A stretch of DNA of 52,278 nt. It comes from Bacteroidales bacterium (GTDB taxonomy: Bacteria; Bacteroidota; Bacteroidia; Bacteroidales; P3). Of this stretch, positions 2,107 to 45,105 are shown piece by piece. The position numbers were made by a program, and so were the translations under genes. The stretch is taken from the NCBI GenBank assembly GCA_024400415.1, contig JAKSMS010000008.1:1-52278 (forward strand), in the 5' to 3' direction. The stretch's first letter is position 1; every line of letters begins with the position of its first letter. Below the pieces are notes generated by a model. It had not been told where the DNA came from. It did no database searches and saw only the letters and a program-made list of their open reading frames with translations.

Positions 2107-2192
2107 CGCTTCCTTGACGCTTCCGCGACATACCTCCGACTATTCTCCGACTAATCTCCGGGTCAACTCCGATAAAAAAGCCCGAGAAATAC
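2107..2192 (+). repeat. Array A: 11-bp-period intergenic repeat, six degenerate units
   Basis: Six consecutive 11-nt blocks from 2107 to 2172 keep the same register, with the core TCC/CTCCGA at fixed phase; examples are ctattctccga (2140-2150) and gtcaactccga (2162-2172). The run is followed by cgagaaatac (2183-2192), which also follows array C. The period of 11 is not a multiple of three and no frame is open, so it is not coding. Both neighbours (tRNA-Asn, parE) read on the + strand, the same strand as the CTCC reading. Whether it is transcribed or bound by a protein is not known. The stretch 2034-2106 before it holds nothing else I recognise. Confidence 0.75.
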
Positions 2193-2236
2193 CATAGATA
2201 CAAACCCATTATCCCAAAGAAAAAACGGACCAAAAA

Positions 2237-2263
2237 GTTATCAACAGCCATTTTGTAGATAAC
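2237..2263. promoter_or_regulatory. Inverted pair of DnaA-box-like sites upstream of parE
   Basis: gttatcaaca (2237-2246) and its inverted partner tgtagataac (2254-2263, reverse complement gttatctaca) are separated by 7 nt. Each contains a 9-mer one base away from the DnaA box TTATCCACA, with the difference at the same position. It could be a DnaA site or an operator for another dimeric regulator. It lies about 70 nt upstream of the parE start. Confidence 0.35.
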
Positions 2264-2301
2264 TCATTTGCGGTTGCGGACTTTTTGCTTATTATATTAT
2301 G

Positions 2302-2309
2302 TAATTTTG
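2302..2309 (+). promoter_or_regulatory. Candidate -7 element for parE
   Basis: TAATTTTG matches TAnnTTTG and lies 24 nt before the parE ATG. A TTTG is present at 2284-2287 but the spacer (14 nt) is shorter than in the other promoters of this window, so only the -7 part is supported. Confidence 0.45.
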
Positions 2310-2332
2310 CATTTTGAAATAATACGCGCAAA

Positions 2333-4228
2333 ATGGAAGAAAACGAACTGAATCTGACGGCCAACTATGGCGATGACAGCATTGTACACCTTGAAGACAT
2401 GGAGCACATCCGCCTGCGTCCCGGTATGTATATCGGCAAACTCGGCGATGGTTCGAGCCACGACGACGGCATATATGTGCTCATCAAAGAGGTTATTGAC
2501 AATGCCATCGACGAATACACCTCGGGTTTCGGCAAGAAGGTGGAGGTAAAGATCAACTTTGGCGAACGCCGAGTAAGCATCCGCGACTACGGCCGAGGCA
2601 TACCTCTGGGCAAAATGGTGGAAGCCGTCAGCAAACTGAACACGGGAGCAAAGTACGACAGCAAGGTGTTTCAAAAGTCAGTCGGACTGAACGGCGTAGG
2701 TACCAAGGCCGTGAATGCGCTCAGCAGCTACTTCAAAGTGACTGCCATCCGCGACGGCAAATGCCGCACCGCTGAATTTTGCGAGGGAAAACTGACCAAC
2801 GATAGCGGAATCATCCCTTACGAGGGCGAGGACACCGGCACCTTGGTAGAGTTCGTTCCCGACCACAAGCTGTTCGGCAACTTCCATTTCGTGAACGAAT
2901 ACGTAGAAAAGCGAGTATGGAACTACTGCTACCTCAACCGCGGGCTCACCTTCTACTACAACGACAAGCGCTATTATTCCAAAAACGGACTGCTGGACCT
3001 GCTAGACAACAACATGGACTCGGCCGCCCTCTACCCTATCATACACATTAAGGACGACGACTTTGAGGCTGCCTTTACCCACGTGAACGGACAGAGCAGC
3101 GACTACTACTACTCGTTTGTCAACGGCCAGCACACCACCGAAGGCGGCACACACCAGTCCGCATTCCGCGAGGCCTATGCAAGGGTGGTAAAGGAATTCT
3201 ACAAGAAAGACTGCGAACCCGCCGACTGCCGACAAGGCCTAGTATGCGCACTCTGCATTAGAATCCAAGAACCGGTATTCGAAGCCCAAACCAAAACCAA
3301 ACTAGGCTCCACACATCTAGCGCCGAACAAGACCGACGGCACCAACGACAGCCCTTACATCAAGACCTACGTGCTAGACATACTAAAGCGCCATCTCGAC
3401 AACTATCTGCACATGCACGCCGATACTGCCGAGGCCCTTTTGGCAAAAATCAATGCCAACGAAAAAGAGCGAAAAGAAATCGCAGGCATCAAGAAAGTGG
3501 CACGTGATGCAGGCAAGCGTGCCAGCCTAAACAACTCCAAGCTGCGCGACTGCCACGTGCACTACAACACCAACCATGCACGCAGACTGGAAAGCACCAT
3601 CTTCATCACCGAGGGTCTTTCGGCAAGCGGAAGCATCACCAAATGCCGCGACGTAGAGACTCAGGCCGTATTCAGCCTGAGAGGCAAACCCAAGAATTCG
3701 GTAAGCCTCAACAAAGTGGACGTATACAAAAACGAAGAGCTCAACCTGCTCCACAACGCCTTGGACATCGACGACGGCATAGAGAACCTACGATACAACA
3801 ACGTGGTGATTGCCACCGATGCCGATGTCGACGGCATGCACATACGCCTGCTGCTGCTCACCTTCTTCCTAAAGTTCTATCCCGAACTCGTGCGCACCGG
3901 CCACGTATATATCCTTCAGACGCCCCTGTTCCGCGTGCGCAACAAGCAGAAAACTCGTTACTGCTACAGCGACGAAGAACGAATAGACGCCATCAACTCG
4001 CTTCCCGGCGCTGAAATCACCCGATTCAAAGGTCTTGGCGAAATATCGCCCGACGAATTTAAGGGCTTTATCGACCAAGATATGCGACTCGACCCAGTAT
4101 TGCTCCACAAAGAATTCGACACGAAGGGAGTGCTGCAGTTCTACATGGGAGCCAACTCCGCAGAACGTCGCGACTTCATCATGAAAAACCTAAGAATCGA
4201 AGACGATGAGTCGATTGTGCTGACATAA
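2333..4228 (+). CDS. parE: DNA topoisomerase IV subunit B (type IIA, GyrB/ParE family)
   Basis: 631 residues, the size of Bacteroidetes ParE. It is the ATPase subunit that drives strand passage for decatenation, with ParC (not in this window). GHKL ATP-binding motifs: [10 protein letters not shown] with catalytic Glu53 and Asn57, RDYGRGIP (84-91), and GLNGVGTKA (118-126). The QTK loop is at about residue 318. The TOPRIM domain has EGLSASG from Glu427 and DADVDG at Asp496/Asp498/Asp500. The canonical TOPRIM motif is EGDSA, so Leu429 replaces a normally conserved Asp. The short N-terminus and the [11 protein letters not shown] form favour ParE over GyrB. ATG at 2333 follows the candidate -7 element directly. 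Confidence 0.92.
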
Positions 4229-4264
4229 GAAATAGACTCAAAAATCAACTTTTTTAAAGAAAAA

Positions 4265-4296
4265 TTTGGTCAATTAGAAAAAACGTACTATTATTG
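4265..4296 (+). promoter_or_regulatory. Bacteroidetes-type promoter for the acidic conserved protein
   Basis: TTTG at 4265-4268, 20-nt spacer, TATTATTG at 4289-4296 (seven of eight matches to TAnnTTTG). The ATG at 4313 follows by 16 nt. Confidence 0.65.
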
Positions 4297-4312
4297 CACA
4301 AAATTTGAAGCA

Positions 4313-5002
4313 ATGAAACCAACAAGAACTCGCAAGAAAAACCTGATAGTCAGCTATAAGAACCTGACCCCCGAACTACTCGAACTGCTCAAACAGACCT
4401 ATCCAGAAGGCTATAAGGACTATATACAGCGCTTCGAAAAGCCAAACGGCGAAACAATCTTTGTGGTGTCAATCGAAACCGAAGAAACCTGCTATATGGT
4501 GAAAATGGACGTAAAAGTAGACTCCGCTATGGCCGCAGATGCCGAACTCGACAAAGAGATGTACGGCGACGAGGAAGAGAGCGACCTCGAGTTTGAGGGC
4601 CTCGATGCAGTAGAAAAAGAAGACGACCCAGAACACCGCGAAACCCGCCTCCATCACGGCAACTACGAGGAAGAGCTTGACCCAAAAGCCAAACTCAAAA
4701 AGAACGTAGAACTCTCTAAAGAACTGGCCGAAGCCTTTGGCGACGACGACACCGATGAATATGACGACGACTATGTGGATGATGACGACGAGGATGACGA
4801 CATAGACGAAAAAGACGATATGGAAGACGATTTTGAGCCATCATTGGAAGACATCATGGGCATTGAAGACGAGATGGGGAACCTAATCCTGCCAGAAGAT
4901 GCCGAACTGGCCGACAAACACAAAGGCACCAAGAAGGCAACCAAAAAAACAGCCGAACCTGCCGAACCCAAGAAGAGAGGCCGCAAGAAGAAAGAAGAGT
5001 AG
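4313..5002 (+). CDS. Conserved acidic protein of unknown function
   Basis: 229 residues in three parts. Residues 1-70 look folded (RKKNLIVSYKNLTPELLELL, then YPEGYKDYIQRFEKPNGE) and are the part I associate with an uncharacterised Bacteroidetes family. Residues about 75-190 are very acidic, with a near-continuous run of Asp and Glu at about 142-178. The tail is basic, rich in Lys and ending KKRGRKKKEE, which contains an AT-hook-like RGRK. A domain with an acidic arm and a basic AT-hook-like tail suggests contact with nucleic acid or with a basic partner, but this is inference. It has its own promoter 84 bp after parE and its own terminator, so it is probably monocistronic. Confidence 0.7.
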   Translation: MKPTRTRKKNLIVSYKNLTPELLELLKQTYPEGYKDYIQRFEKPNGETIFVVSIETEETCYMVKMDVKVDSAMAADAELDKEMYGDEEESDLEFEGLDAVEKEDDPEHRETRLHHGNYEEELDPKAKLKKNVELSKELAEAFGDDDTDEYDDDYVDDDDEDDDIDEKDDMEDDFEPSLEDIMGIEDEMGNLILPEDAELADKHKGTKKATKKTAEPAEPKKRGRKKKEE

Positions 5003-5030
5003 CCACCACCTACCCTGCACAACACATAAA

Positions 5031-5060
5031 ATCCTCGCCCAACGGCGGGGATTCTTTTTT
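5031..5060 (+). terminator. Rho-independent terminator after the acidic protein gene
   Basis: Nine-bp stem atcctcgcc (5031-5039) with ggcggggat (5044-5052), one T-G wobble, loop of four, followed by tctttttt. Confidence 0.85.
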
Positions 5061-5088
5061 CTCTCAAACAAATAATAAGAAATAGCCG

Positions 5089-5682
5089 CTATTCGTAGAA
5101 ATGCATTTCTGTCAGGTATTCATACACAGGCTCGGTCAGAAGGTACTGTACGCTATGTTTTAGGGCAATCTGGCTGCGAATATAGCTAGATGAAATATCC
5201 ATCATAGGCACATCAACTATTGTGACATGCGGATGTCCCGCAAAAGGGTTATCCTCAAATCTGGGACGGGGATAGACAAATATCTGGTAATTATCAAGAA
5301 TATACTGGTAATTGCGCCAGCGATGGAATCCTGCCAGATTGTCCCCACCCATAATGAGACAGAACTGATAGTCGGGATATCGTTCCGAAAGTTCAGCCAA
5401 TGTGACACAAGTATAGGAGGGTATTGGCAAGTGAAATTCCACATCGCAGGCTCGAAGGCGGTAATTGTCGTCTATTGCGCGGCGGACCATCTGCATGCGA
5501 TGGTGGTCTGCCAGAAGAGTTCGACGTTCCTTGAAAGGGTTCTGCGGCGAAACGACAAACCACACCTCATCGAGATCGCTATTATGCAGCATCGCATTGG
5601 CAATAATGAGATGGCCGACATGAATGGGATTAAACGAGCCGAAAAAGAGGCCAACTTTCTTGTGCTTTGGTGACGGGTTCAT
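5089..5682 (-). CDS. nadD: Nicotinate-nucleotide adenylyltransferase
   Basis: 197 residues, usual for NadD. It adenylylates nicotinic acid mononucleotide to deamido-NAD in NAD synthesis. The nucleotidyltransferase signature GLFFGSFNPIHVGH is at residues 11-24 (the HxGH binds the phosphates), and the second conserved motif SSSYIRSQI is near residues 164-172. A DNLAGFHRWRN segment in the middle is also typical. Start is ATG at 5680-5682. It reads convergently with the acidic protein gene; the 5061-5088 gap holds only the end of that terminator. Upstream on the same strand is the small exported protein gene, with a weak terminator between, so nadD may have its own promoter, which I do not see. 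Confidence 0.95.
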   Translation of the reverse strand: MNPSPKHKKVGLFFGSFNPIHVGHLIIANAMLHNSDLDEVWFVVSPQNPFKERRTLLADHHRMQMVRRAIDDNYRLRACDVEFHLPIPSYTCVTLAELSERYPDYQFCLIMGGDNLAGFHRWRNYQYILDNYQIFVYPRPRFEDNPFAGHPHVTIVDVPMMDISSSYIRSQIALKHSVQYLLTEPVYEYLTEMHFYE

Positions 5683-5696
5683 TACGGATTGGTTAC

Positions 5697-5721
5697 TAAA
5701 AAGGCCATCTTGCGACGGCCT
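5697..5721 (-). terminator. Weak terminator between the 198-residue exported protein gene and nadD
   Basis: Read on the minus strand, aggccgtc and gatggcct pair (5-bp stem, one mismatch, two more pairs) and are followed by ttttt. A second small hairpin (cctcaac/gttgagg) lies just after the stop codon. Confidence 0.5.
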
Positions 5722-5763
5722 ATGTCATTATCTGATCCTCAACATAGGTTGAGGCGGATCATC

Positions 5764-6360
5764 CTAATAGTATTTATATTTAGTGCCTACTGCAATATGG
5801 CGCAGTTTGTTGCCCTTGAAGGTATATATCTCATAAACCTCGCCAGCACCAGAAACCACCTTGAGCACGGCCACATCGGAGGTATATGACTTGGGGTACT
5901 TGGTGAAGAAGGTATGGAACACATCGTCCTTAGTCACGCCCGGATGCAGTCCATTATCGAGAATAATCTCAGGATCGGTCACCTTGGCGGCAAGCACCTC
6001 GCAAAGGCCGGTATGAATACTGCGGTATACATCAATAAAGCTGCCGTCGAGACGGCGGATAGAGTTTACTGATACCGACATCGAGTCATAATAAGTCTTA
6101 TATCCAACCTCACGATACCATTGGAGCTGGTCGGAGGTCAGATACTGCTCTACGGTCTCAAACTTGCCGAATGGATAAATCACATAGTCGGCAAGGGAAT
6201 AGATGGTCATGGTGTCGCAATATACCTTGATATCCTTGATCATATATTCTGCACGAGAGTAGTTCATCATGCGCATAGCCTTGGCGCGGGAGCTGACCTC
6301 TTGGCCGAAGCTGATGGCCACAAGCATCATCATGGCCGAGAGTAGTACGAGTTTCTTCAT
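5764..6360 (-). CDS. Exported protein of unknown function
   Basis: 198 residues with an N-terminal signal peptide MKKLVLLSAMMMLVAISFGQ (cleavage probably before the Gln). The mature part has no motif I can assign; it contains YCDTMTIYSLADYVIYPFGKF and a C-terminal block DVAVLKVVSGAGEVYEIYTFKGNKLRHI that looks like beta-strands. Six bases upstream there is an in-frame GTG (6366), but the ATG at 6360 begins a normal signal peptide, so I chose it. The gene lies downstream of the Omp28-like T9SS cargo gene on the same strand, separated by a strong hairpin. I cannot say more than that it is likely periplasmic or surface-located. Confidence 0.7.
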   Translation of the reverse strand: MKKLVLLSAMMMLVAISFGQEVSSRAKAMRMMNYSRAEYMIKDIKVYCDTMTIYSLADYVIYPFGKFETVEQYLTSDQLQWYREVGYKTYYDSMSVSVNSIRRLDGSFIDVYRSIHTGLCEVLAAKVTDPEIILDNGLHPGVTKDDVFHTFFTKYPKSYTSDVAVLKVVSGAGEVYEIYTFKGNKLRHIAVGTKYKYY

Positions 6361-6395
6361 TGACACTATTTATTATGAATACTATTATATATAAC

Positions 6396-6426
6396 GCAAG
6401 GCACAAAAAGATATTTTGTGCCTTGC
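6396..6426 (-). terminator. 13-bp hairpin after the Omp28-like gene
   Basis: gcaaggcacaaaa (6396-6408) pairs perfectly with ttttgtgccttgc (6414-6426) around a 5-nt loop. It lies 22 bp past the stop of the T9SS cargo gene. There is no clean U-tract after the stem, so it may slow transcription or protect the 3' end rather than terminate fully. Confidence 0.6.
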
Positions 6427-6448
6427 ATAATATTTTTCGTTTTACGGA

Positions 6449-8290
6449 TTAACGAACAACATTGAGGCGGCTGGTAGCAAGACCCTTGTCGGTCTTAACG
6501 GTTACCATGTAGGTACCAGCTGCGTAGTTCTGAGTGTTAACCTGGAGTGCTTCAGCGTTAACATTGCTGTTTACGTAAACCTCCTGGCCGATAGCGTTGA
6601 TGATGCGTACCTCGCGGATTGCCTCAGCAGCGTTAACGTTAACCATGTTGGTGGCTGGGTTAGGATATACGTTGAGAACAACATCGCTAGCAACCTGGTC
6701 GATGCCTACGTAAGGAGCGTTGATGTAAGCGGTCTGAGTAGCGTTGGCAACACGGCGGTTGAGTATGTCGGTGCTGTAGTTGCTTACGAAAGCGATGAGC
6801 TTGCAACGGCATACAGCGTAAGACTGAGGAACGGTGTATTCATAGTTCTTTGAGTAGCTGCCGCTCTGGATGTCCTCGCCCCATACGTCGGTGATGGCGT
6901 GGCGCATTACGTGCATGTGCTCAATTCTACCAGCACCTGCCTGAGAATAGAGCAGAGAGTCCTCCATGAGGTAGAGGGAGATGCGTGGATTCTGGAGGCC
7001 GTTAGTGGTACCGCTTACGGTGCAGCTGAGCTTGCGGGTAGCTGGATCAAAGCTTACATTGCTGATAGCAACTGAAGAGAATGTAGGAATTGCGAGAGCT
7101 GCATCAAGCTTAGCAGCGTTCACGGCTGCCTGCTGAGGAACCTCTACTGGGGTAGTGCCGCTGCCATCGCCAAATTCTACAGAACGGTCGAACATTGCGC
7201 CTGGAGCATAGGTGCTGCCGCCGGCATTGTAGAAAGCAAGGAGTGCATTGTTCTCTGGGCAGGTCATCTCGTCGTCGTAGTAGCCAGCGTGGTGCTTCAG
7301 CCAGATGTAGTTGGTCTTGCCAGCGAGACCCTCCTCGAGACGCTGCTCGCCGCCTGGGCACTGTGGGCACTTGCCAGTAGTGAAGTGCTCGAGAAGAACG
7401 GTACGCTCTACAGCGTTGGTAGCATCGTATACATAGGTAGAAGTGGTAGCGCTGTTGTCAGCAACATCGTCAGCCTGGCCATTAGGATTAGCAACGGTAG
7501 CCTCCACGGTGTAGGTGCCTTCTACAGACTCCATGAATGGGGTATTGAAGGTGTAGGTGTAGGTCTGGTTGTAAGCAAGGTTGATGCCGGTAACGGTCTC
7601 GGTAGCGGTAGGAGCACCACCATTTACGGTATAGTAAGCCTCGAATTGGGTAAGAGGCTGAACGCCCTTGTTGCGAACGGTAACCTTAACCTGGCTAACA
7701 GCATTCATAGGAGAGTAGCCTGACATAGAAGCCGAAACAGCCATAATCTCATCGGCAGGAGGAACGCAAACATTTACGTTGTCGAGCAACAGAACGAAGC
7801 CATCGTTGGTCTGATCTACGAAAGCGACGTAGATGTTCTGGCCAGCATAAGCGCTGAGGTCGATCATGAATGACTCCCACTCATCGCCCGGGATGTAGGT
7901 CTGAACGGTGGTGAAGCTTGACTTCTGGTTGTCGGTGGTAGAAATCTTAACGGTAAGTCCATCAGGATAGCTTGCATTATAGTTCATAGCGTCGAACATC
8001 ACTGCATAACCTGCTGCAGGAATGTTCAGCTGTGGGGTAACAAGCCAACGGTCGGCAACTGTAGGTGGGTTGAAATAAGAGGTAGTCCACACGCAAGGAG
8101 CAGGATTACCAGTAACGGTGCAAGCGGTCCAAGCGCCGCCCTGGAAATCAGAGTAGTAAACCTGGTTGTTGTCGTTGTACATAGTCCAACCGGCAGGAAC
8201 ACCAGCATTAAACCCCTCGTTCAAGAGCGACTGAGCGCTCATGGTTGCAGCCATACAGAGAGCTGCGAGAGAAAGTAACAGTTTTTTCAT
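6449..8290 (-). CDS. T9SS-secreted protein with jellyroll and Omp28-like domains
   Basis: 613 residues. Signal peptide MKKLLLSLAALCMAATMSAQ. Residues about 22-175 form a cleaved-adhesin/choice-of-anchor type jellyroll (NEGFNAGVPAGWT ... DRWLVTPQLNIP ... IYVAFVDQTNDGFVLLLDNV). A CARDB-like beta domain follows at about 185-285. At about 295-450 an Omp28-like segment starts VLLEHFTTGKCPQCPGG, with a thioredoxin-type CPQC. The last ~75 residues are a type A T9SS sorting domain (LNVYPNPATN ... GTYMVTVKT ... VVR). The protein should be exported by Sec, moved across the outer membrane by T9SS and anchored or released after tail cleavage. A full promoter lies 44 bp upstream. The role of the CPQC on the cell surface is unknown. 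Confidence 0.88.
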   Translation of the reverse strand: MKKLLLSLAALCMAATMSAQSLLNEGFNAGVPAGWTMYNDNNQVYYSDFQGGAWTACTVTGNPAPCVWTTSYFNPPTVADRWLVTPQLNIPAAGYAVMFDAMNYNASYPDGLTVKISTTDNQKSSFTTVQTYIPGDEWESFMIDLSAYAGQNIYVAFVDQTNDGFVLLLDNVNVCVPPADEIMAVSASMSGYSPMNAVSQVKVTVRNKGVQPLTQFEAYYTVNGGAPTATETVTGINLAYNQTYTYTFNTPFMESVEGTYTVEATVANPNGQADDVADNSATTSTYVYDATNAVERTVLLEHFTTGKCPQCPGGEQRLEEGLAGKTNYIWLKHHAGYYDDEMTCPENNALLAFYNAGGSTYAPGAMFDRSVEFGDGSGTTPVEVPQQAAVNAAKLDAALAIPTFSSVAISNVSFDPATRKLSCTVSGTTNGLQNPRISLYLMEDSLLYSQAGAGRIEHMHVMRHAITDVWGEDIQSGSYSKNYEYTVPQSYAVCRCKLIAFVSNYSTDILNRRVANATQTAYINAPYVGIDQVASDVVLNVYPNPATNMVNVNAAEAIREVRIINAIGQEVYVNSNVNAEALQVNTQNYAAGTYMVTVKTDKGLATSRLNVVR

Positions 8291-8333
8291 ATTGGTTAAT
8301 TTTAATGAATAATTACACTTCTATAATTCGGTG

Positions 8334-8365
8334 CAAAATTACAAAAAAAAAATCATTCACACAAA
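8334..8365 (-). promoter_or_regulatory. Bacteroidetes-type promoter for the Omp28-like gene
   Basis: On the minus strand TTTG (8362-8365), 20-nt spacer, TAATTTTG (8334-8341). Start of transcription would be near 8328, giving a leader of about 38 nt. Confidence 0.8.
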
Positions 8366-8393
8366 TAATTTTTATCATTCATGTTTTTTTTCG

Positions 8394-8401
8394 TATCTTT
8401 G
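8394..8401 (+). promoter_or_regulatory. Candidate -7 element for tex
   Basis: TATCTTTG is an exact TAnnTTTG; at the expected 20-nt distance upstream there is only TTTT (8370-8373). It lies inside the longest possible open frame, which argues that translation starts later, at 8463. Confidence 0.6.
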
Positions 8402-8462
8402 TTATCGATTAATCAACCCAGAAAGCACGCATCGCACCTGGTTATCAACCAATAACAGATTT

Positions 8463-10589: not shown

Positions 10590-10618
10590 CGAATACAAAC
10601 CCAATACACCACTTTTTG

Positions 10619-10649
10619 GGCAGCCGGAAATCGCCGGCTGCCTTTTTTT
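10619..10649 (+). terminator. Rho-independent terminator of tex
   Basis: Perfect nine-bp stem ggcagccgg (10619-10627) and ccggctgcc (10634-10642), loop aaatcg, then seven T. Confidence 0.9.
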
Positions 10650-10691
10650 ACGTGCCGAAGCGCCGCCCCATCAGCCAAGGCCTATCGGGCA

Positions 10692-10823
10692 CACAGCTCC
10701 TTCCAAACTGGCGCATTTGTGCTATATATGTGCTATATATGTGCTATATATGTGCTATATTTCTGCTATTCTATAGAGATAGGACATATATAGCACATAT
10801 ATAGCACATATATAGCACAAATG
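10692..10823 (+). repeat. Array E: 11-bp-period array with perfect 40-bp inverted repeat
   Basis: Starts with units shared with array C: cacagctcctt (10692-10702) and ccaaactggcg (10703-10713). From 10714 to 10823 there are exactly ten 11-nt blocks. The left arm 10714-10753 and right arm 10784-10823 are perfect 40-bp inverted repeats, each made of tandem copies of an 11-mer of the form gtgctatatat; the spacer is 30 nt. The 11-nt register is kept across spacer and right arm. As RNA or single-stranded DNA it would form a very long AU/AT-rich hairpin. The element lies 43 bp after the tex terminator and 116 bp before the next gene; 10824-10939 contains nothing else I recognise. Confidence 0.9.
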
Positions 10824-10939
10824 ACTGAGATAATACAGAGCCAAGGCGGCAATGGGAGCGATTTAACGTGCTGATTCTATTCTAGAACGGGGCAATAAAA
10901 TGGGAGATTCTGCGTTTATGCGGCACAACTGTATCGACT

Positions 10940-11743: not shown

Positions 11744-11752
11744 TCTGCCGTA

Positions 11753-13291: not shown

Positions 13292-13376
13292 AGCATTAGG
13301 TTTTAGAGATCACCCTTTAAAACGAGAAAAGGGCAAAAAAAGTACGCCGAGAGCATGCTATGTGGATTTTTTTTTG

Positions 13377-13384
13377 TATTTTTG
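13377..13384 (+). promoter_or_regulatory. -7 element placed directly before the mfd start
   Basis: TATTTTTG is an exact TAnnTTTG and ends 5 nt before the ATG at 13390, so transcription would begin at or within a base or two of the start codon. No TTTG is seen at the usual distance upstream. Confidence 0.6.
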
Positions 13385-13389
13385 CACGC

Positions 13390-23464: not shown

Positions 23465-23519
23465 AGTCCTCTTTATCGGAGATGACATACAGTTAACACG
23501 GAGAATACCCAGAGGAAAA
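23465..23519 (-). repeat. Array D: 11-bp-period intergenic repeat, minus orientation
   Basis: Read on the minus strand, blocks of 11 nt run from 23519 down to 23465; gtattctccgt (23498-23508) and gtcatctccga (23476-23486) match units of arrays A and B, including the closing unit gtca-ctccga followed by taaa. Both neighbours (polY ending at 23552, murB starting at 23360) are also on the minus strand. It lies between the polymerase stop codon and the murB promoter. Confidence 0.65.
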
Positions 23520-31816: not shown

Positions 31817-31871
31817 TGTTTCTAAGGCTTAACTGAGGCCTTTCTCCGAGTAATCTCTAGGTCAACTCCGA
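31817..31871 (+). repeat. Array B: 11-bp-period repeat between rmlC and rmlB
   Basis: Five 11-nt blocks in one register: the third is cctttctccga (31839-31849) and the last is gtcaactccga (31861-31871), identical to the closing unit of arrays A and C and followed by taa as in A. It lies within an otherwise compact operon on the coding strand. The gap 31773-31928 holds no promoter of the usual form and no gene. Confidence 0.7.
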
Positions 31872-31928
31872 TAATAAGCCCCAAAGACATGCCGCCAAAT
31901 ATCGAATCCTAAACCGAAGAAACCAAAG

Positions 31929-35470: not shown

Positions 35471-35491
35471 GCATCAGATCTAATAAGAATG

Positions 35492-35520
35492 ATAAAGCCC
35501 GCCGAAAGCGGGCTTTATTT
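35492..35520. terminator. Bidirectional terminator between the NagB/PIG-L gene and the CapD-like gene
   Basis: Perfect 11-bp stem ataaagcccgc (35492-35502) and gcgggctttat (35508-35518) with loop cgaaa, A/T-rich on both sides, between two convergent genes. Confidence 0.85.
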
Positions 35521-35542
35521 ATTGCAATATCGCAGTAGTTTC

Positions 35543-37468: not shown

Positions 37469-37511
37469 TTAGTCTATTTTTTCAATAACTATTGTGTCGG
37501 TTTGGAGTTTG

Positions 37512-37543
37512 CAAAGTTATTATTTTTTTCACTCTAAGGCAAA
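37512..37543 (-). promoter_or_regulatory. Bacteroidetes-type promoter for the CapD-like gene
   Basis: Minus strand TTTG (37540-37543), 20-nt spacer, TAACTTTG (37512-37519). It lies 50 bp past the gltD-like stop. Confidence 0.82.
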
Positions 37544-37593
37544 TCCATTTCTATCCATTTCGTAATATACTCTATTTCAATAAGCAAAAACGG

Positions 37594-38946
37594 CTATTTA
37601 AGGTCGATAGACTCCATCAGTTTGACAGCATCGACATACTGGGCGATGCCTTCTGCCACCAATTTGGCATCGCGCATCGCATGCACAACAGAGGCCTGAC
37701 GGTTGGCCACATCGCCGCCCGCAAACACACCTCTTCTCGAAGTCATGCCATAAGGCATTTCGCGGGTGAGCATGAAGCCCTTCTCGTCGGTATTGATGCC
37801 GCTAGTGTTGCGCGAAGCGGTAGTGGCAGGCTGAGCACCTACGGCCAGCAGCACCACGTCGGCGCCCAGCGTCTTGCGCTCATACTCCATGTGGTCGGGG
37901 TCCTCGGGGGTTGGTGCAGGCTTCTTGGTCTGCATCACTATCTCAGTCATGCTGCCGTTGTCGTCGTGGTGGATTTCCACGATGTCGGCATTCCAGTTGA
38001 AGCGAATGCCCTCCTCGAGGGCCTCTTCATACTCCGAATGCAGCGCAGCCATGCGGTCGATGGTGCGATGATAGACCACGTCCACCGTTCTGGCGCCCAA
38101 GCGGATAGCCATGCGTGCAGCGTCCATTGCCGTATTGCCGCAGCCAATCACGTACACCTTGTCGCCCGGCTTCACAGCCACCTCGTTGCGGCCGGCCAGG
38201 CCATCCTGATAGAGCTGTGATATGCGGAGGAAATGGGTGGCCATCACGGCCCCCTTGGTCTCCTTGCCAGGGATGTCGAGTTCGCGAGGCTTCGAGGTGC
38301 CGGTGCCCACAAACACGGCGTCAAATCCCTGCTCAAACATCTGGTCGATAGTGATATCCTCGCCCACAGTGGTATTCATGTGGAACACCACGCCGAGCTC
38401 CTCGATAAGGCGCACCTCGCGACGCACCACCTCCTTAGGCAGGCGGTATTCTGGAATGCCGTACATCAGCACGCCGCCGGCCTCGCGCTCCATCTCGAAG
38501 ATGTCGACATGGAAGCCCATGCGAGCCAGATCGCCCGAAACCGTAAGGCCGGCAGGACCGGAGCCAATCACGGCCACGCGGCCACGAGTCTTGGCCGGGA
38601 TATCGGAGTGGGTAAGGTTGAGTTCGGCGTCGAAGTCGGCTATGAAGCGCTCCAACTTGCCGATATTGATATTCTTGCCCTGCTTGCCAAGAACGCACGA
38701 GCCCTGGCACTGGCGCTCATGGGCACAAACGCGTCCGCAAACGGAGGGAAGATTGCTTTTGGCACGAATAATCTGGATGGCGTTGCCCATATTTCCCTTG
38801 CGCAATTCGTGAATCCAATCAGGAATATCATTAGAAATCGGACAGCCCTTTTTGCACGATGGCACCTTGCATCTGAGGCATCTCTGAGCCTCTTGGATAG
38901 CCTCTGCCATTGTGTAACTTTCACTAACTTCTTTGAATTTGTTCAT
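37594..38946 (-). CDS. gltD: NADPH-dependent glutamate synthase small subunit / NfnB-like FAD oxidoreductase
   Basis: 450 residues. The N-terminal domain has two 4Fe-4S Cys sets (CLRCKVPSCKKGCP and CGRVCAHERQCQGSC), followed by ERFIAD, an FAD-binding GSGPAGLTVSGDLARMG, and an NADPH-binding GCGNTAMDAARMAIRLGA. This is the architecture of GltD and of NfnB. No gltB or nfnA gene is in the window, so its electron partner must be encoded elsewhere, or it acts alone. The ending EGIAQYVDAVKLMES is normal. The frame reaches 39033, but ATG 38946 (MNKFKEVSESYTM) is chosen because the promoter's -7 element (38971-38978) lies inside the longer frame. Confidence 0.88.
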   Translation of the reverse strand: MNKFKEVSESYTMAEAIQEAQRCLRCKVPSCKKGCPISNDIPDWIHELRKGNMGNAIQIIRAKSNLPSVCGRVCAHERQCQGSCVLGKQGKNINIGKLERFIADFDAELNLTHSDIPAKTRGRVAVIGSGPAGLTVSGDLARMGFHVDIFEMEREAGGVLMYGIPEYRLPKEVVRREVRLIEELGVVFHMNTTVGEDITIDQMFEQGFDAVFVGTGTSKPRELDIPGKETKGAVMATHFLRISQLYQDGLAGRNEVAVKPGDKVYVIGCGNTAMDAARMAIRLGARTVDVVYHRTIDRMAALHSEYEEALEEGIRFNWNADIVEIHHDDNGSMTEIVMQTKKPAPTPEDPDHMEYERKTLGADVVLLAVGAQPATTASRNTSGINTDEKGFMLTREMPYGMTSRRGVFAGGDVANRQASVVHAMRDAKLVAEGIAQYVDAVKLMESIDLK

Positions 38947-38970
38947 TTCTTCGAATCGTGTTTGAGGGTG

Positions 38971-39002
38971 CAAAGTTACGAATTTTACGCGAACCATCCA
39001 AG
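38971..39002 (-). promoter_or_regulatory. Bacteroidetes-type promoter for gltD
   Basis: Minus strand CTTG (38999-39002, three of four), 20-nt spacer, TAACTTTG (38971-38978, exact). Leader to ATG 38946 about 19 nt. Confidence 0.7.
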
Positions 39003-39150
39003 CAATTTGCAATATATTTTTATTAATGACCACATGCGCGACCCAAAAACCTCGGCAGAAAACAAGTAAAATTTGTTACACATACAGCCCCATTTCCAAC
39101 CCAGATCGATTCACAATCGCCCCGACAACAAGGTCCAACATAGACCATTT

Positions 39151-39282
39151 TTTGCGCTATATCTCCTTTTTATCTCCTTTATATCTCCTTTTATTCTGTT
39201 TCTTAGCAAAAGAGATAAAAAGGAGAAAATAAAGAGATAAAAAGGAGATATAACAAAGAAACAGCTGTTTTATAGCGCAGTA
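39151..39282. repeat. Array F: 11-bp-period array with nested inverted repeats
   Basis: Twelve consecutive 11-nt blocks. The first is tttgcgctata (compare tttgtgctata in array E), then three near-identical tctcctttt-type units (39162-39194), then units of the opposite polarity (aaaaaggagat). Inverted repeats: 9 bp tgcgctata (39153-39161) with tatagcgca (39271-39279); 19 bp from 39158-39176 with 39234-39252; 9 bp ctgtttctt (39196-39204) with aagaaacag (39256-39264). An 18-bp direct repeat recurs at 22 bp, twice the period. Gap context: 38947-39458 holds the gltD promoter, this array and, at 39283-39458, AT-rich sequence before ansA in which I see nothing certain. Confidence 0.88.
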
Positions 39283-39458
39283 GCGCCTTTCTATCCGAAA
39301 CGGAATACATCAGCCATCTAAGGCGAGCAGAAAAGAGAATTTGTTGCACTAAAAATAAAATCTCAAATATGCGAAATGATGGATTTCAAAAAAAATAAAA
39401 CCTCTGCAAACTATTCGGCAACTTTTTGCGTTATAGGAATAATTAAAAATATAATTTT

Positions 39459-40472
39459 ATGCACAACAAAGTCCTTTTGATCTATACCGGCGGCACCATC
39501 GGCATGGTGCAAGACGAGAACGGGGCACTCCACCCTTTCGAACTCGAGCGCATCTTCGAGGCCGTTCCGCAACTAAAGCATACTACCTACCAGATCGACA
39601 GCTGCCAGCTTAAGGAGATCATCGACTCCTCCAACATGAACCCCAAGGTGTGGGCCGAGATAGCCGACATCATTGAGCGCGAGTATGAGAAGTACGACGG
39701 ATTCGTTGTGCTCCACGGCACCGACACCATGGCCTACACCGCCTCGGCACTGAGCTTCATGCTCGAGAATGTGGGCAAGCCCGTGGTGCTCACCGGCTCC
39801 CAGCTGCCCGTGGGCATGCTGCGCAGCGACGGACGCGAGAATATCATCTGCGCCCTCGAGATTGCCAGCGGCCAGCACCAGGTGGTGCCCGAGGTGTGCA
39901 TCTTCTTTGAGCAGCACCTCTATCGCGGCAACCGCTCCACCAAGGTGAGCTCCGAGAACTTCGACGCCTTCTACAGCTACAACTATCCTCCGCTGGTGAC
40001 CGCCGGCATCAATATCCGCTACAAGAAGCAGCACATCATGCCCATGCCCGACGAGCCGATGCGGGTGCGCACCCGCATGGACGAGCACATCGCCGTGCTG
40101 AAGCTCTTCCCCGGCATCACTCCTCAGGTGGTGCAGGCCGTGCTGCATGCCGAGGGTCTCAAGGGCGTGATCATCGAGACCTACGGCTCGGGCAATGCCC
40201 CCACAGAGCAATGGTTCCTCTTGGCGCTCCAGGAGGCCGCGATGAGGGGCATCCTGCTGATCGACGTCACCCAGTGCAAGGCCGGCGGCGTGAAGCTGAA
40301 GCAGTATGCCGTGAGCTGCGACCTCGACCGCATCGGAGTCATTTCCGGCGGCGACATCACCACCGAGGCAGCCGTCACCAAGCTGATGTACCTGCTCGGC
40401 AACTACGGCGACGACCCGCAGAAGGTGAAAGAGCTATTCGAAATGCCATTACGCGGCGAGATGAATTTGTAA
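39459..40472 (+). CDS. ansA: L-asparaginase, type I
   Basis: 337 residues without a signal peptide, so cytosolic type I. It hydrolyses asparagine to aspartate and ammonia. Active-site motifs are intact: first Thr in LLIYTGGTIGMV (residues 5-16) and second in VVLHGTDTMAYTAS (Thr-Asp pair), with GSQLPVGMLRSDGREN and the later Lys region SQ...QCKAGGVKLKQY. Composition is more GC-rich and codon choice more even than its left neighbour, as in the next genes. The region upstream holds array F; a TTTTTG (39423-39428) and a TAATTTTA next to the ATG hint at a promoter, but the fit is poor. Confidence 0.94.
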   Translation: MHNKVLLIYTGGTIGMVQDENGALHPFELERIFEAVPQLKHTTYQIDSCQLKEIIDSSNMNPKVWAEIADIIEREYEKYDGFVVLHGTDTMAYTASALSFMLENVGKPVVLTGSQLPVGMLRSDGRENIICALEIASGQHQVVPEVCIFFEQHLYRGNRSTKVSSENFDAFYSYNYPPLVTAGINIRYKKQHIMPMPDEPMRVRTRMDEHIAVLKLFPGITPQVVQAVLHAEGLKGVIIETYGSGNAPTEQWFLLALQEAAMRGILLIDVTQCKAGGVKLKQYAVSCDLDRIGVISGGDITTEAAVTKLMYLLGNYGDDPQKVKELFEMPLRGEMNL

Positions 40473-40547
40473 GACAATTTTCTTGGAGCTCAGAACAATC
40501 AAAATCATATTACAATAGTCCACAAAGTTGAAAAAACATCAAATAAT

Positions 40548-41321
40548 ATGTTAAACCAATCCCGGAAATCCGTCGACAACCACGCCCGGATAATTGGGAA
40601 AGCCTCCTTGTTGAGGAGGCTGATTCTGGTAATTGGGTGCTGCCTGGCTTCAGTCGTAGACACAAGTGCGCAGGTCACGAACCTTGCCGGATTCGACGAC
40701 CACATGCTGCACTACGGCATTCAGATCGGCTATACCGGGGCAAAGTTCGACGTGGGCTTCACCCAGATGGACAGCATTCGCGGGCGACTCAACAACACCA
40801 ACTCCTATAATCAGGCCGGATTCCATATAGCCGTAATCGGAGATATGCGCATCGGCCGATTCTTCAGCCTTAGGGCGCTGCCTGGAGTGTCGCTGCTCAG
40901 CCGCGAAATCACCTACACTTGGGATCCCGCCTACCAGGCCGACCACCCGATAGTCGACCCCAAGCGAACCGTGGAATCGGTATACGGCGACTTCCCCATC
41001 GAGATCAAATACAAGGCCATGCGCTGGAACAACTTCCGTCCCTACGTGACCGGTGGCGCCAGCTATGGATTCGACTTTGCCAGCCTGCGCAAGAACAAGA
41101 ACAACAACGACGAGGCCATCATCCGCCTCAACCCCAACGACATACGCTATTCGCTTGGCGTCGGAAGCGACTTCTTCCTCTCGTATGTGAAGTTCGCCAT
41201 CGAGCTGAAGATGAACTTCGGCGTGCTCAACCTCAGGGTTGACGACAACGATATCTATACCCTTTCCACCGACAAGCTCACCTCGCGCACCTATATGATC
41301 TGCTTCACATTCGAAGGATAG
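40548..41321 (+). CDS. porT: PorT-family outer membrane beta-barrel protein (T9SS assembly)
   Basis: 257 residues. A long N-region (MLNQSRKSVDNHARIIGKAS) precedes a signal-peptide core RRLILVIGCCLASVVDTSAQ. The mature part starts VTNLAGFDDHMLHYGIQIGY, resembling the N-P/G-(F/Y)-D-xxx-H(F/Y)G opening of PorT, followed by alternating beta-strands with aromatic girdles (GFHIAVIGDMRIGRFFSLRALPG, NNFRPYVTGGASYGFDF, SYVKFAIELKMNFG). PorT/SprT is an outer-membrane component needed for T9SS in Porphyromonas and Flavobacterium. PorX at 11.7 kb and two T9SS cargo proteins in the window fit. The unusually long N-region might mean the start is later, but there is no other Met before the signal core. Confidence 0.82.
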   Translation: MLNQSRKSVDNHARIIGKASLLRRLILVIGCCLASVVDTSAQVTNLAGFDDHMLHYGIQIGYTGAKFDVGFTQMDSIRGRLNNTNSYNQAGFHIAVIGDMRIGRFFSLRALPGVSLLSREITYTWDPAYQADHPIVDPKRTVESVYGDFPIEIKYKAMRWNNFRPYVTGGASYGFDFASLRKNKNNNDEAIIRLNPNDIRYSLGVGSDFFLSYVKFAIELKMNFGVLNLRVDDNDIYTLSTDKLTSRTYMICFTFEG

Positions 41322-41347
41322 CGCACTCCATCAGCAAGAAAAAAGTA

Positions 41348-42895
41348 ATGAAGACCATCCAGATAGACCTCACACCTGAAGAATACTTCACCGAAGAACT
41401 ACTGAAAAAAGCCGTTGCCAAAGAACTTCACACCGCCAGCGAGAGCATCGCCCATGTGGAAGTCATCAAGCGCAGCCTAGATTCGCGTCGAGGCATTCGC
41501 TATCACGCCACGGCAGAGGTCTACATGGCCGGCGAACCCATCTCCGAGAAGGACTATTCGTCGCCCTACCAAGACTGCCGTAATGGCGATCCGGTAGTGA
41601 TCGTCGGAGCCGGACCAGCAGGACTCTTTGCCGCCCTCAAGGCGTTGGAGAAAGGACTGAAGCCCATCATCATCGAACGCGGCAAGCCGGTGAAGGAACG
41701 CAAGTTGGACATCGCCCAGCTGGCGCGCGAAAAGCAGGTCAACCCCGAGAGCAACTGGTGCTTTGGCGAAGGTGGTGCCGGCACGTTCAGCGACGGCAAG
41801 CTATATACCCGCAGCAACAAGCGCGGCAACATCGACGAGGTGATCAGCAAGTTCGTAGAGCATGGCGCCGACCCCAAGATCATGATCGACGCCCACGCCC
41901 ATATCGGCACCGACTGCCTCAGCGGCATCATAGCCAACATGCGTAACACCATCACGAGCCATGGCGGAGAATACCATTTCGAAAGCCGCGTCGTCGACCT
42001 CGTCATAGACGGCGACAGCCGTGTGCGCGGCGTCATCGACCACCTCGGCAACCGCTACGAGGGCAAGGCCGTGATCCTGGCCACCGGCCACTCGGCCAGA
42101 GACATTTATGAGCTCTTCTACCAGAAGGGATGGCAGATCGAGGCCAAGCCCTTTGCCATGGGCGTGCGCGTAGAGCACCCGCAAAGGCTCATCAACAGCA
42201 TACAGTACCACACCGAGCACTACTCTCCCCTACTGCCGCCGGCAAGCTACTCGCTGGTGACGCAGGTGGGACGGCACGGCGTGTTCTCGTTCTGCATGTG
42301 CCCCGGCGGAGTAATAGTGCCCGCCGCCACAGCCGACGGACAGCAGGTGGTGAACGGCATGAGCAACTCCAACCGCAACTCCCCATACGCCAACTCGGGC
42401 ATCGCAGTGACGGTGGGACTGGAAGACGTGCCGCAATACAGCCAATATGGAGAGTTGGCGCTGCTAAGGTTCCAGCAGGACGTGGAGCGGCGAGTCTTTG
42501 AGGCGGCCGGCAACAGCATCAAGGCCCCCAGCCAGCGGCTCACCGACTTCGTGAAAGGCAAGCCCAGCACCCGTCTCAACAAGAGCAACTACATGGGCGA
42601 ATGCGTAAGCGCCAACGTCTACGAGATACTGCCCGACTTCGTGGTAGAAGGCCTTCAGCAGGGATTTATGGATTTCGGTCGCAAGATGCGCGGTTTCTAC
42701 ACCGCCGAGGCAAGCGTGCTGGCCGTGGAGTCGAGAACCTCGTCGCCCGTGCGCATTCCCCGCGACAGAGAGACTCTGGAACACCCGCAGCTCAAGGGGC
42801 TCTACCCCTGCGGCGAAGGCGCCGGCTACGCCGGAGGCATCGTATCCAGCGCCATGGACGGAATTAATTGTATAGAAAAGTTTTGCCAGAGGTAA
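41348..42895 (+). CDS. FAD-dependent oxidoreductase (COG2509-like)
   Basis: 515 residues. A ~75-residue N-terminal cap (IQIDLTPEEYFTEELLKKAVAKELH) precedes the FAD-binding loop VVIVGAGPAGLFAALKALEKG (~83-103), then ERGKPVKERKLDIAQL and the conserved NWCFGEGGAGTFSDGKLYTR. Towards the end are AVESRTSSPVRIPRD and LYPCGEGAGYAGGIVSSAMDG, which closes the FAD site. This family is widespread and annotated as FAD-dependent dehydrogenase, but its substrate is not known to me. It lies 26 bp after porT and 30 bp before uvrB, so porT, this gene and uvrB could be one transcript. Confidence 0.88.
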   Translation: MKTIQIDLTPEEYFTEELLKKAVAKELHTASESIAHVEVIKRSLDSRRGIRYHATAEVYMAGEPISEKDYSSPYQDCRNGDPVVIVGAGPAGLFAALKALEKGLKPIIIERGKPVKERKLDIAQLAREKQVNPESNWCFGEGGAGTFSDGKLYTRSNKRGNIDEVISKFVEHGADPKIMIDAHAHIGTDCLSGIIANMRNTITSHGGEYHFESRVVDLVIDGDSRVRGVIDHLGNRYEGKAVILATGHSARDIYELFYQKGWQIEAKPFAMGVRVEHPQRLINSIQYHTEHYSPLLPPASYSLVTQVGRHGVFSFCMCPGGVIVPAATADGQQVVNGMSNSNRNSPYANSGIAVTVGLEDVPQYSQYGELALLRFQQDVERRVFEAAGNSIKAPSQRLTDFVKGKPSTRLNKSNYMGECVSANVYEILPDFVVEGLQQGFMDFGRKMRGFYTAEASVLAVESRTSSPVRIPRDRETLEHPQLKGLYPCGEGAGYAGGIVSSAMDGINCIEKFCQR

Positions 42896-42925
42896 CATAT
42901 ATTTGACCCAGTTGTTATTATAGGT

Positions 42926-45025
42926 ATGGAATTTGAACTGAAATCTGATTTTGCGCCGATGGGCGACCAGCCCGAGGCCATACGGCAGCTCGTGGAAGGC
43001 ATCAACAACGGCCAGCGGGCGCAAGTGCTCATGGGCGTGACGGGCAGCGGCAAGACTTTCACGGTGGCCAACGTCATCAAAGAACTGAACCGCCCTACCC
43101 TCGTGCTCAGCCACAACAAGACCCTTGCTGCCCAGCTCTACGGCGAGTTCAAGCAATTCTTCCCCAACAACGCGGTGGAGTACTTCGTGAGCTACTACGA
43201 CTACTACCAGCCCGAGGCCTACATCGCCGCCACTAATACCTATATAGAAAAAGACCTGGCCATCAACCAAGAGCTCGACAAACTGCGCCTTCGTGCCAGT
43301 TCGGCCCTGCTGAGCGGCCGCCGCGACGTGATCGTGGTCAGCTCCGTAAGCTGCATCTACGGCATCGGCAATCCCGAGGAGTTCAAGCGCGGCACCGTAG
43401 CCCTCAAGGTAGGCGACCGCATGGAACGCGACCAGCTGCTCATGCGCTTGCTCGAAGGGCAGTATGTCCGCAACGAGATAGAGTTCATCAACGGCCGCTT
43501 CCGCGTCAAGGGCGACACCGTGGACATCTTCCCATCCTTTGCCGATTTCTGTTTCCGAATCAGCTTCTGGGACGACGAGATCGAGTCCATCTACAGCTTC
43601 GACCCCATCAGCGGACAAAAGCTCGAAAACTTCAACGAGACGGTCATCTATCCCGCCACCAACTTCCTCACCAACAAGGAAACTATGGCGCAGGCCCTGT
43701 TGCAGATCCAGCACGACATGTTTGAGCGTCGCGACTATCTCGAATCCATCGACAAGCACCTCGAAGCCAAGCGACTAGAGGAGCGCGTGAACTACGACCT
43801 AGAGATGATCCAAGAGATAGGCTACTGCAGCGGCATCGAGAACTATTCCCGCTACTTCGACGGCCGCGAGGCCGGCACAAGGCCCTTCTGCCTCATCGAC
43901 TATTTCCCCGACGACTTCCTGCTGGTGATCGACGAAAGCCACGTCACCGTACCTCAGATCGGAGCCATGTATGGCGGCGACCGCAGCCGCAAGACTTCGC
44001 TCGTGGAATATGGATTCAGACTTCCGTCGGCATTCGACAACCGCCCGCTGAAATACGACGAATTCTACGACATCACCGGCCAGACCATATATATTTCCGC
44101 CACCCCTGCCGACTACGAGCTCAACGAAGCCGAAGGCGTAGTGGTAGAGCAAGTCATTCGTCCAACAGGACTGCTCGACCCGGTAGTAGAGGTGCGACCC
44201 GCCGTGTCGCAGGTCGACGACCTGCTCGACGAGATTGAGAAGACCCTCGACAAAAACGAGCGCGTGCTGGTCACCACCCTCACCAAACGCATGGCCGAAG
44301 AGCTCTCCAGCTACCTCATAAACCTCGGAATCAGAACCAAATACATACACTCCGACGTCGACACATTGGAACGCGTGGAGATCATGCGCGACCTCCGCAT
44401 GGGCGTCTTCGACGTGCTCGTCGGCGTCAACCTCCTGCGCGAGGGCCTAGACCTGCCCGAGGTGAGCCTCGTGGCCATCCTCGATGCCGACAAGGAAGGC
44501 TTCCTGCGCAGCGACCGAGCACTTATCCAGACCATCGGCCGTGCCGCCCGAAACGTGCACTCCAAGGCCATCCTCTATGGCGACAAGATCACGGGGTCCA
44601 TGCAGCGCGCCATCGACATCACCAACGCCCACCGCGAGAAGCAGATACGCTTCAATCTCGAGCACGGCATAGTGCCCAAGCAGATCAAGAAATCCACCGA
44701 GTCTATCATCGGACAGACCTCCGTCATAGAGCTCGCCGCTGAGGAAGCCGCCGAATACCAAACCAAAGACCCCTGGCAGTTCGACGAAGGCCAGCGCAAC
44801 CACACCGCCCCCCTCGAAGTCCACGACGACGAGGCCGAATACCGCGTAGCGCCCGCCCCAAAAGCCAAAGAGCCCGACGGCCGCACCAAGGAACAGCTGA
44901 AAAAGGACATCCGCGAAACCCAACGCAAGATGCAGGCGGCAGCCAAGGAGATGAACTTCATGCAGGCCGCAAAGTTCCGCGACGAAATCGCCGAAATGCA
45001 GAAGCTGCTCGAAACCGCCCGATAG
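42926..45025 (+). CDS. uvrB: UvrABC excinuclease subunit B
   Basis: 699 residues. UvrB verifies DNA damage found by UvrA and positions UvrC. Walker A GVTGSGKT (37-44), the beta-hairpin that clamps DNA in YYDYYQPEAYIAATNTYIEKD, the DEAD-type DESHVT motif (LLVIDESHVTVPQIGAMYGGD), YISATPADYE, motif V/VI (DVLVGVNLLREGLDLPEV, QTIGRAARN) and a C-terminal UVR domain (MNFMQAAKFRDEIAEMQKLL) that contacts UvrC are all present. A linker with many acidic residues and Pro precedes the UVR domain. Array C begins five bases after the stop codon, and no terminator of the usual form is seen there. Confidence 0.97.
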   Translation: MEFELKSDFAPMGDQPEAIRQLVEGINNGQRAQVLMGVTGSGKTFTVANVIKELNRPTLVLSHNKTLAAQLYGEFKQFFPNNAVEYFVSYYDYYQPEAYIAATNTYIEKDLAINQELDKLRLRASSALLSGRRDVIVVSSVSCIYGIGNPEEFKRGTVALKVGDRMERDQLLMRLLEGQYVRNEIEFINGRFRVKGDTVDIFPSFADFCFRISFWDDEIESIYSFDPISGQKLENFNETVIYPATNFLTNKETMAQALLQIQHDMFERRDYLESIDKHLEAKRLEERVNYDLEMIQEIGYCSGIENYSRYFDGREAGTRPFCLIDYFPDDFLLVIDESHVTVPQIGAMYGGDRSRKTSLVEYGFRLPSAFDNRPLKYDEFYDITGQTIYISATPADYELNEAEGVVVEQVIRPTGLLDPVVEVRPAVSQVDDLLDEIEKTLDKNERVLVTTLTKRMAEELSSYLINLGIRTKYIHSDVDTLERVEIMRDLRMGVFDVLVGVNLLREGLDLPEVSLVAILDADKEGFLRSDRALIQTIGRAARNVHSKAILYGDKITGSMQRAIDITNAHREKQIRFNLEHGIVPKQIKKSTESIIGQTSVIELAAEEAAEYQTKDPWQFDEGQRNHTAPLEVHDDEAEYRVAPAPKAKEPDGRTKEQLKKDIRETQRKMQAAAKEMNFMQAAKFRDEIAEMQKLLETAR

Positions 45026-45029
45026 CATG

Positions 45030-45105
45030 AATTACTAGGGCACAACTCCCGCCTATCTCCTGCCAAACTGGCGGTCAACTCCGAGACTAGGAAGGCGAGA
45101 AATAC
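45030..45105 (+). repeat. Array C: 11-bp-period repeat directly after uvrB
   Basis: Five to six 11-nt blocks from 45030. Units cacaactcccg (45041-45051) and ccaaactggcg (45063-45073) are shared with array E; the unit between them in C (cctatctcctg) is missing in E. The unit gtcaactccga (45074-45084) is identical to the closing units of A and B, and cgagaaatac (45096-45105) follows as in A. So this copy links the A/B/D type with the E type. It is on the coding strand of both neighbours. Confidence 0.78.

Follow-up and report, generated by a model that had tools for sequence, protein, structure and literature searches.

What are the short arrays, dozens of them, that recur between the genes of a gut Bacteroidales bacterium, and what do they have in common when the letters of their units differ? 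The question is raised by a stretch of 52,278 nucleotides (contig JAKSMS010000008.1 of assembly GCA_024400415.1), here called the window, in which an earlier note had described six dispersed arrays, A to F, as one non-coding family with a strict 11-bp register. All six were found where the note had placed them. They belong to a broader phenomenon: intergenic DNA elements made of 11-bp units exist as several multicopy families per genome, and the 11-bp register is retained while the units differ across families and species. One type of element, the hairpin type (E, F, a family of related species that we name K, and others), has two arms that match each other and, between them, a centre that varies. 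The assembly has 1.84 Mb in 79 contigs and is 81% complete, and the genomes compared with it are drafts too, partly incomplete.

Scanned at lags 7 to 30, a region being counted as dense when at least 30 of 44 positions match, the window has four dense regions at lag 11, two at lag 22 and none at the other lags. Together with ten 20-kb stretches from this genome, chosen non-blindly (several contigs, C1, C12 and C23, were previously known for E matches), the window provided 24,737 intergenic bases, with five letter shuffles as control. This sample has 14 dense segments at lag 11, 12 at lag 22 and 5 at lag 33, with a shuffle mean of 0.0 at lag 11 and no more than one dense segment at each remaining lag between 5 and 40 (lag 10: 0; lag 12: 1). 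The excess of lag-11 autocorrelation over shuffled sequence, on which the earlier note had staked its claim, is present and far above chance. Six congeners that lack the CTCCG dialect discussed below were sampled in ten stretches (188,780 bases, 20,994 of them intergenic), chosen on contigs listed for uvrB, one of which (L297) contains a previously seen array. They yield 14 dense lag-11 segments, consisting of non-CTCCG units, with 0.0 in shuffles and 3 and 0 at lags 10 and 12. In both samples the lag-11 excess is accompanied by lags 22 and 33. At least three unit types lie within 9.3 kb of genome G144. No dense lag-11 segment was met in 35,171 intergenic bases from 20 stretches belonging to other families of the order.

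That the arrays do not code for protein holds as well. A codon-trained gene caller, re-run on the arrays of this genome only, places no A-D or E array inside a gene; with a cruder caller, arrays fall inside open reading frames in 4/39 cases in this genome, 11/16 in G024, 1/5 in G046, 2/2 in G110 and 1/5 in G012.

The six arrays are not, by sequence, one family: they make three. The anchor unit GTCAACTCCGA occurs 22 times genome-wide (backwards control 0), and 19 of these places, three having been removed by eye as chance matches in coding-like DNA, were used to build a profile of 77 columns, with no structure. A, B and C, all training copies, score 60.7, 68.6 and 53.5 bits; D, which lay outside the training set, reaches 36.1 bits (E-value 1.7e-10). 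The proposed kinship of A, B, C and D is borne out by this score and by the anchor. E and F fail the profile, with 3.7 bits (E-value 2.2) and 11.6 bits (E-value 0.0076) respectively, and we rejected the single-family reading: each of the two is its own palindromic family. The outer unit of E, CCAAACTGGCG, is A-D-like, and recurs in C without a mismatch. The hairpin nature of E and F, absent from the earlier note, is conspicuous in their single-stranded DNA folds (z -12.0 and -8.0).

The pattern of family E, GCTATATNNNNGCTATAT, with at most one mismatch, has 111 forward and 113 reverse matches in the genome, 224 altogether (control 0), which, at two matches per arm, would correspond to about 55 copies, 29 of which were read; the F pattern has 29 matches at 7 sites, window included (control 0). 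The counts given here come from the 29 copies, found without any rule as to the centre. In an earlier alignment of 26 copies the centre rule alone was enough to keep out any copy with a pair at stem position 4, and removing the rule added two such copies, together with one convergent context (0/21 convergent in the 26-copy set). The stem is 44 bp long, with a centre of 8-9 nt between the first paired bases. Four units stand on each side in 24/29 copies; four copies have one extra unit and one has one fewer, always a whole unit in a single arm. Some mismatches are retained in the stem, at position 4 (27/29), position 6 (29/29) and position 8 (26/29), while position 30 is A-T or T-A in 13 copies, G-C in 9 and mismatched in 7. 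In the 26-copy alignment the variable stem positions, 8, 19, 30 and 41, are 11 apart; past position 44 pairing is mostly lost, with conserved bases at 52 and 63 and, more weakly, at 74, so that the register extends outward beyond the stem.

Family K, studied at 20 sites of two related species (ten each from G053 and G041, mostly pattern matches on both strands), consists of nine 11-mers that form a palindrome of 99 nt centred on GCTTnnnAAGC. Its three-base loop takes six forms among the 20 copies, and two-sided changes are found at pair 24 (C-G 18, G-C 2), at pair 35 (13 and 6, with 1 mismatched) and at pairs 48 and 49.

The surroundings of these elements were judged from codon-trained gene calls. 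Among copies with both neighbours, E has 13 divergent, 10 co-oriented and 1 convergent contexts (24/29 copies), K has 9, 8 and 1 (18/20 copies), and A-D has 2, 21 and 6 (29/39 copies), A-D mostly adjoining gene 3' ends. The divergent placement of E differs from that of A-D (p 0.0002) and from a length-weighted background drawn from ten stretches of the genome (p 0.004). Between element and start codon, the motif TAnnTTTG, which we take to be the Bacteroidetes -7 box, faces the gene on 34/40 E sides, compared with 7/40 for the opposite strand, and on 15/26 K sides, compared with 4/26. Most copies of E and K thus precede genes, in many cases divergent pairs, and lie on the far side of predicted promoters. 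Because a promoter-like box separates element from gene, most E hairpins probably lie outside the flanking mRNAs, and the same placement makes it improbable that E or K are mRNA elements. The earlier note had left the choice between a protein or DNA-level action and an RNA one; for the hairpin type, the distribution of these boxes on the E sides agrees better with the DNA level than with RNA.

Four K sites, among the ten fetched per species, are orthologous between G053 and G041, the single species pair in which conservation was compared. Two of the cores are 99/99 and 98/99 identical (197/198), the single change being in the loop, while their near flanks (120 bp each side) are identical at 198/240 and 191/240 positions (389/480, 81%; pooled Fisher p 5e-14). 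A fourth core, broken by a contig end, has 93 identical positions out of about 95 aligned, both changes being in the loop. K cores are therefore conserved over their flanks at two of the three fully alignable orthologous sites. Another K site of G053 was sought in G041 by DNA comparison: both gene flanks align on contig C119, and no K match is found there. The interval holds, in K's place, another palindromic 11-bp array, with TTCAACGTTCG-type units. It has 27/33 matches at lag 11 (maximum 18 in 100 shuffles), and 37/56 of its stem positions are paired, with a palindrome score of 9.0 (maximum 4.5 in 100 shuffles).

Another facet of this diversity is the dialect of A-D, built on CTCCG. Its tandem pattern (at most one mismatch) is present in 27/120 congeneric genomes, with a maximum of 124 matches in one and 2 control matches overall; our genome has no match at that setting because its units alternate. 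The spacer letters are genome-specific, and several genomes have inverted arms in the same register. By eye, the CTCCG palindromes of G012, G046, G110, G102 and G045 (read at L160, L180, L182, L184-L188, L191, L192 and L194-L198) have inner inverted 11-mers 6 bp apart, with letters that vary by copy. In core sites of the Xer/dif type, two inverted arms of 11 bp flank a centre of fixed length, 6-8 bp. The centre is 6 bp in these five species, but 3 nt in K and 8-9 nt in E, and this variable length led us to reject a tyrosine-recombinase core site. When run backwards as a control, the E pattern happened to pick out another 11-bp family, with 297 matches in G041, 174 in G025, 115 in G053 and 50 in G007. 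When 23 further unit consensuses, chosen by eye in the congener stretches and the window, were compared with the CTCCG unit, their similarity was that of shuffled units (combined z 0.13); a common ancestral unit for all families has, in this comparison, no overall support. A phage or plasmid origin was also rejected: the E pattern has no match in viral contigs, and no plasmid match was obtained. The triple CTCCG unit is found in one viral contig and the two-unit pattern in 23, by eye chance matches save that one. At locus L319 of a viral contig (IMGVR_UViG_3300031760_000084), positions 2895-2927 carry the CTCCG-dialect units ATCAACTCCGA GTCAACTCCGA GTCAACTCCGA a few bases past the stop of a 391-aa gene, tyrosine recombinase-like by eye, a place reminiscent of attP.

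The direct type is more elusive. The A-D profile finds 40 copies in the genome at an E-value of 1e-4 or better and 53 at 1 or better. An alignment of 39 of them carries hardly any information to the left of the fourth unit and peaks at the anchor, a peak that comes partly from the choice of the anchor; conservation is position-specific, and the tail contains an inverted half unit. A role tied to promoter orientation, suggested by the four members of the window, was rejected because neighbours lie in both directions (right-hand genes + 16, - 21 in the genome) and 6/29 contexts are convergent. A conserved RNA fold was likewise rejected, RNAalifold giving 3 pairs, none with two-sided change. In the regions 3' of uvrB in relatives (30 loci, ours included), 11-bp arrays of other dialects were seen by eye in L254, L268 and L275; L259, L261 and L274 were unusable, the length of their longest frame being unlike that listed for uvrB. 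The rmlC-rmlB spacer was syntenic at 6 of 80 wider-relative loci, and lag-11 arrays were found in none of the six. Some A-D copies of the genome have more in common than the array. The longer flanks of L109, L111, L114 and L118 are partly common with other repeats, GCAAAATCGTCATGAGGCGAAGCCGAGTAAC lying at the left of three of them and ATTGGCGATTGGC at the right, which resembles nesting in a larger repeat. L137, L139 and L142 are preceded by similar DNA (CTCCTCCAACCTCTG in two, CAGACCCTC.CGAAGGCAG in three), which suggests that the array was duplicated along with adjoining DNA. Table 1 collects the arrays of the window, together with a long open frame located after them.

Table 1. Arrays built on 11-bp units, and one open frame, in the window
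Feature	Positions	Strand	Description	Neighbouring genes
Array A	2118..2200	+	four 11-mers, anchor GTCAACTCCGA at 2162-2172, short tail	tRNA gene; topoisomerase-subunit gene (DNA gyrase B Pfam match)
Array E	10703..10834	+	hairpin of 11-mers; arms 10714-10758 and 10779-10823, 98% complementary; left arm with one additional whole unit; outer unit CCAAACTGGCG at 10703-10713	
Array D	23466..23518	-	A-D member, anchor GTCATCTCCGA	
Array B	31817..31893	+	direct 11-mers, anchor GTCAACTCCGA at 31861-31871	rmlC-type and rmlB-type genes either side
Array F	39149..39261	+	palindromic hairpin, TATCTCCTTTT-type 11-mers	upstream of asparaginase-type gene
Array C	45030..45106	+	direct 11-mers, anchor GTCAACTCCGA at 45074-45084	directly 3' of uvrB
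Open frame	46807-52134	+	1775 aa	

What could such elements be for? Our preferred reading, which we hold as possible rather than probable, is that the hairpin type consists of DNA-level structural elements under constraint, spread as multicopy families. They would work as DNA structure, a cruciform extruded in negatively supercoiled DNA between divergent promoters, or alternatively as a track coated by a candidate protein that would occupy the 11-bp units one by one. Such coating would account for the register equally well as DNA structure does. Either the cruciform or the coated track might buffer or insulate the adjoining promoters. Units of 11 bp would be gained or lost whole, and since letters would count for less than pitch and symmetry, one family could take over a site from another. 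For the direct type, whose role is the least clear of all, a related function, or decay from something of the kind, is probable. A bolder formulation, which we regard as more doubtful, is that these arrays make up a class of bacterial chromosomal element defined by its pitch and not by its sequence: an intergenic 11-bp repeat, usually a long palindrome, whose families would emerge, multiply and replace one another at the same sites with period and symmetry retained, the cell reading the helical spacing and the fold-back structure instead of the letters. In published work (PMC3940949), a connection has been drawn between the mode in which DNA is supercoiled and periods of 10-11 bp in its sequence. 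A related situation is described, in the part of the report drawn on here, for the capsule operon of Porphyromonas gingivalis, another member of the Bacteroidales, where a long imperfect intergenic palindrome upstream of genes, thought to be cruciform-capable, is bound by an HU protein (PMC3969353). In contrast to the present families it is known there from one locus, and its published 77-nt arm has no lag-11 signal (9/33).

Several observations weigh against this interpretation. A, B and C do not fold (single-stranded DNA z -0.3, 0.8 and -1.3), and stem position 4 is paired in two of the 29 E copies. Choosing K sites from pattern matches favours intact palindromes, and the replacement of one family by another rests on one site. 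At the third orthologous K pair (L366/L371) the core, identical at 92/99 positions, is no better conserved than the flanks, at 228/240 (p 0.44), so that constraint on K is not universal. Matching arms can arise, too, by hairpin-templated repair in the absence of selection, an explanation that is disfavoured, taken alone, by the mismatches retained in the E stem. As for the diversity of units, the similarity test covered comparisons with the CTCCG unit only, and two units, that of F (p 0.05) and that of G016/G048 (p 0.04), are singly of borderline similarity to it; E and K both contain GCTATAT, and some families may share descent. Finally, in the wider relatives (80 loci, L028-L107) lag 7 gives 31 dense segments and lag 22 gives 25, but lag 11 only 12. 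Arrays at lag 14 (15 dense intergenic segments) also outnumber those at lag 11 at these loci, and heptamer arrays may form a second short-period class in these Bacteroidales.

The serious rival to constrained DNA structure is selfishness. The elements would be interspersed repeats akin to miniature inverted-repeat transposable elements (MITEs) or to REPINs, formed of repetitive extragenic palindromes (REPs), which an unseen enzyme copies, which are tolerated in intergenic DNA and which stay alike through copying or gene conversion rather than host function. We consider this somewhat less likely than our preferred reading. It would fit the many near-identical dispersed copies, such as the matches to the E pattern, the CTCCG dialect with its genome-specific spacers in more than a fifth of the congeners (27/120), and the position of E and A-D copies outside the genes of the codon-trained caller. 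It leaves unexplained the exact 11 bp across different families, and at least four K sites common to two species were inherited in place. Neither sharp ends nor target duplications were made out, and E and K fade outward in register (no search for insertion sequence (IS) ends was made). The earlier note had cited the tandem-repeat MITEs of P. gingivalis, with a unit about twice as long, as the nearest precedent. That precedent, BrickBuilt, has a 23-nt unit and IS5-like terminal repeats, as far as the sections of its description used here go, and its authors report it from P. gingivalis and P. gulae (PMC4596501); like our arrays, it combines a Bacteroidales host, an intergenic location, tandem units in a dispersed multicopy element and no internal transposase. 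Here, by contrast, units of 11 bp, palindromic cores and many unit sequences across one genus are found, and BrickBuilt is an analogy, not a relative. REPs and REPINs, which go with a RAYT transposase, are also multicopy palindromic intergenic repeats, of 20-40 bp according to the part of the literature consulted (PMC3733652), unlike palindromes of about 100 nt or direct arrays with a fixed 11-bp register. The RAYT (Y1 transposase) domain PF01797 has no match in this 81% complete genome, where a gene in the missing part is possible, in a search that was positive in 6/14 control genomes; a GTAG or CGTC tag was seen by eye in none of 23 E cores.

The DNA might be read by letters after all. PhoB/OmpR direct-repeat operators and the parC sites of ParR have an 11-bp spacing, with head-to-tail units near promoters, and arrays of operators for sequence-specific proteins of these types, aligned head to tail per 11 bp, would make sense of the same register met here, of unit-number changes that concern whole units (5/29 E copies), of E and K standing upstream of promoter-like boxes and of position-specific conservation in A-D. 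We nevertheless find this quite unlikely. The known systems have one sequence per protein and no long perfect palindromes, while here dozens of copies have differing unit sequences; a genome with this many unit sequences (ours has three families, G144 no fewer than three unit types) would require several proteins, and the arms co-vary, which would not be predicted for independent half-sites. Eleven bp is also about one turn of double-stranded RNA, and long transcribed hairpins read turn by turn would agree with the strong folds of E, F and K (computed with DNA parameters), with variable loops and with two-sided changes. This is highly improbable: the promoter-like boxes on most E sides should keep the hairpins out of the flanking mRNAs, direct-only arrays cannot fold, and the tRNA is the only match in the window to score at an Rfam gathering threshold, the weaker matches on the E, F-type and K hairpins being nearly all to microRNA models (generic hairpins), with one Phe leader. 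Least probable of all would be neutral minisatellites, where tandem units come from slippage and descent preserves an accidental period. Gain and loss of whole units, lag-7 arrays in relatives and the GCTATAT common to E and K would suit them; the many unit sequences with a common 11 bp, the near emptiness of lags 10 and 12 and the two K cores conserved over their flanks would not.

We found no description of a class of 11-bp palindromic repeats in a partial collection of open-licence literature, most subscription papers lying outside that coverage. Repeat finding based on sequence would separate the families and miss their common rule. If the reading by pitch and symmetry is true, they would make a class alongside REPs and MITEs, and an 11-bp pitch selected independently of sequence would offer a testable genomic handle on the way supercoiling, or a pitch-reading protein, shapes bacterial promoters. 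Even if the elements were selfish, a helper enforcing 11 bp across different families would be unusual.

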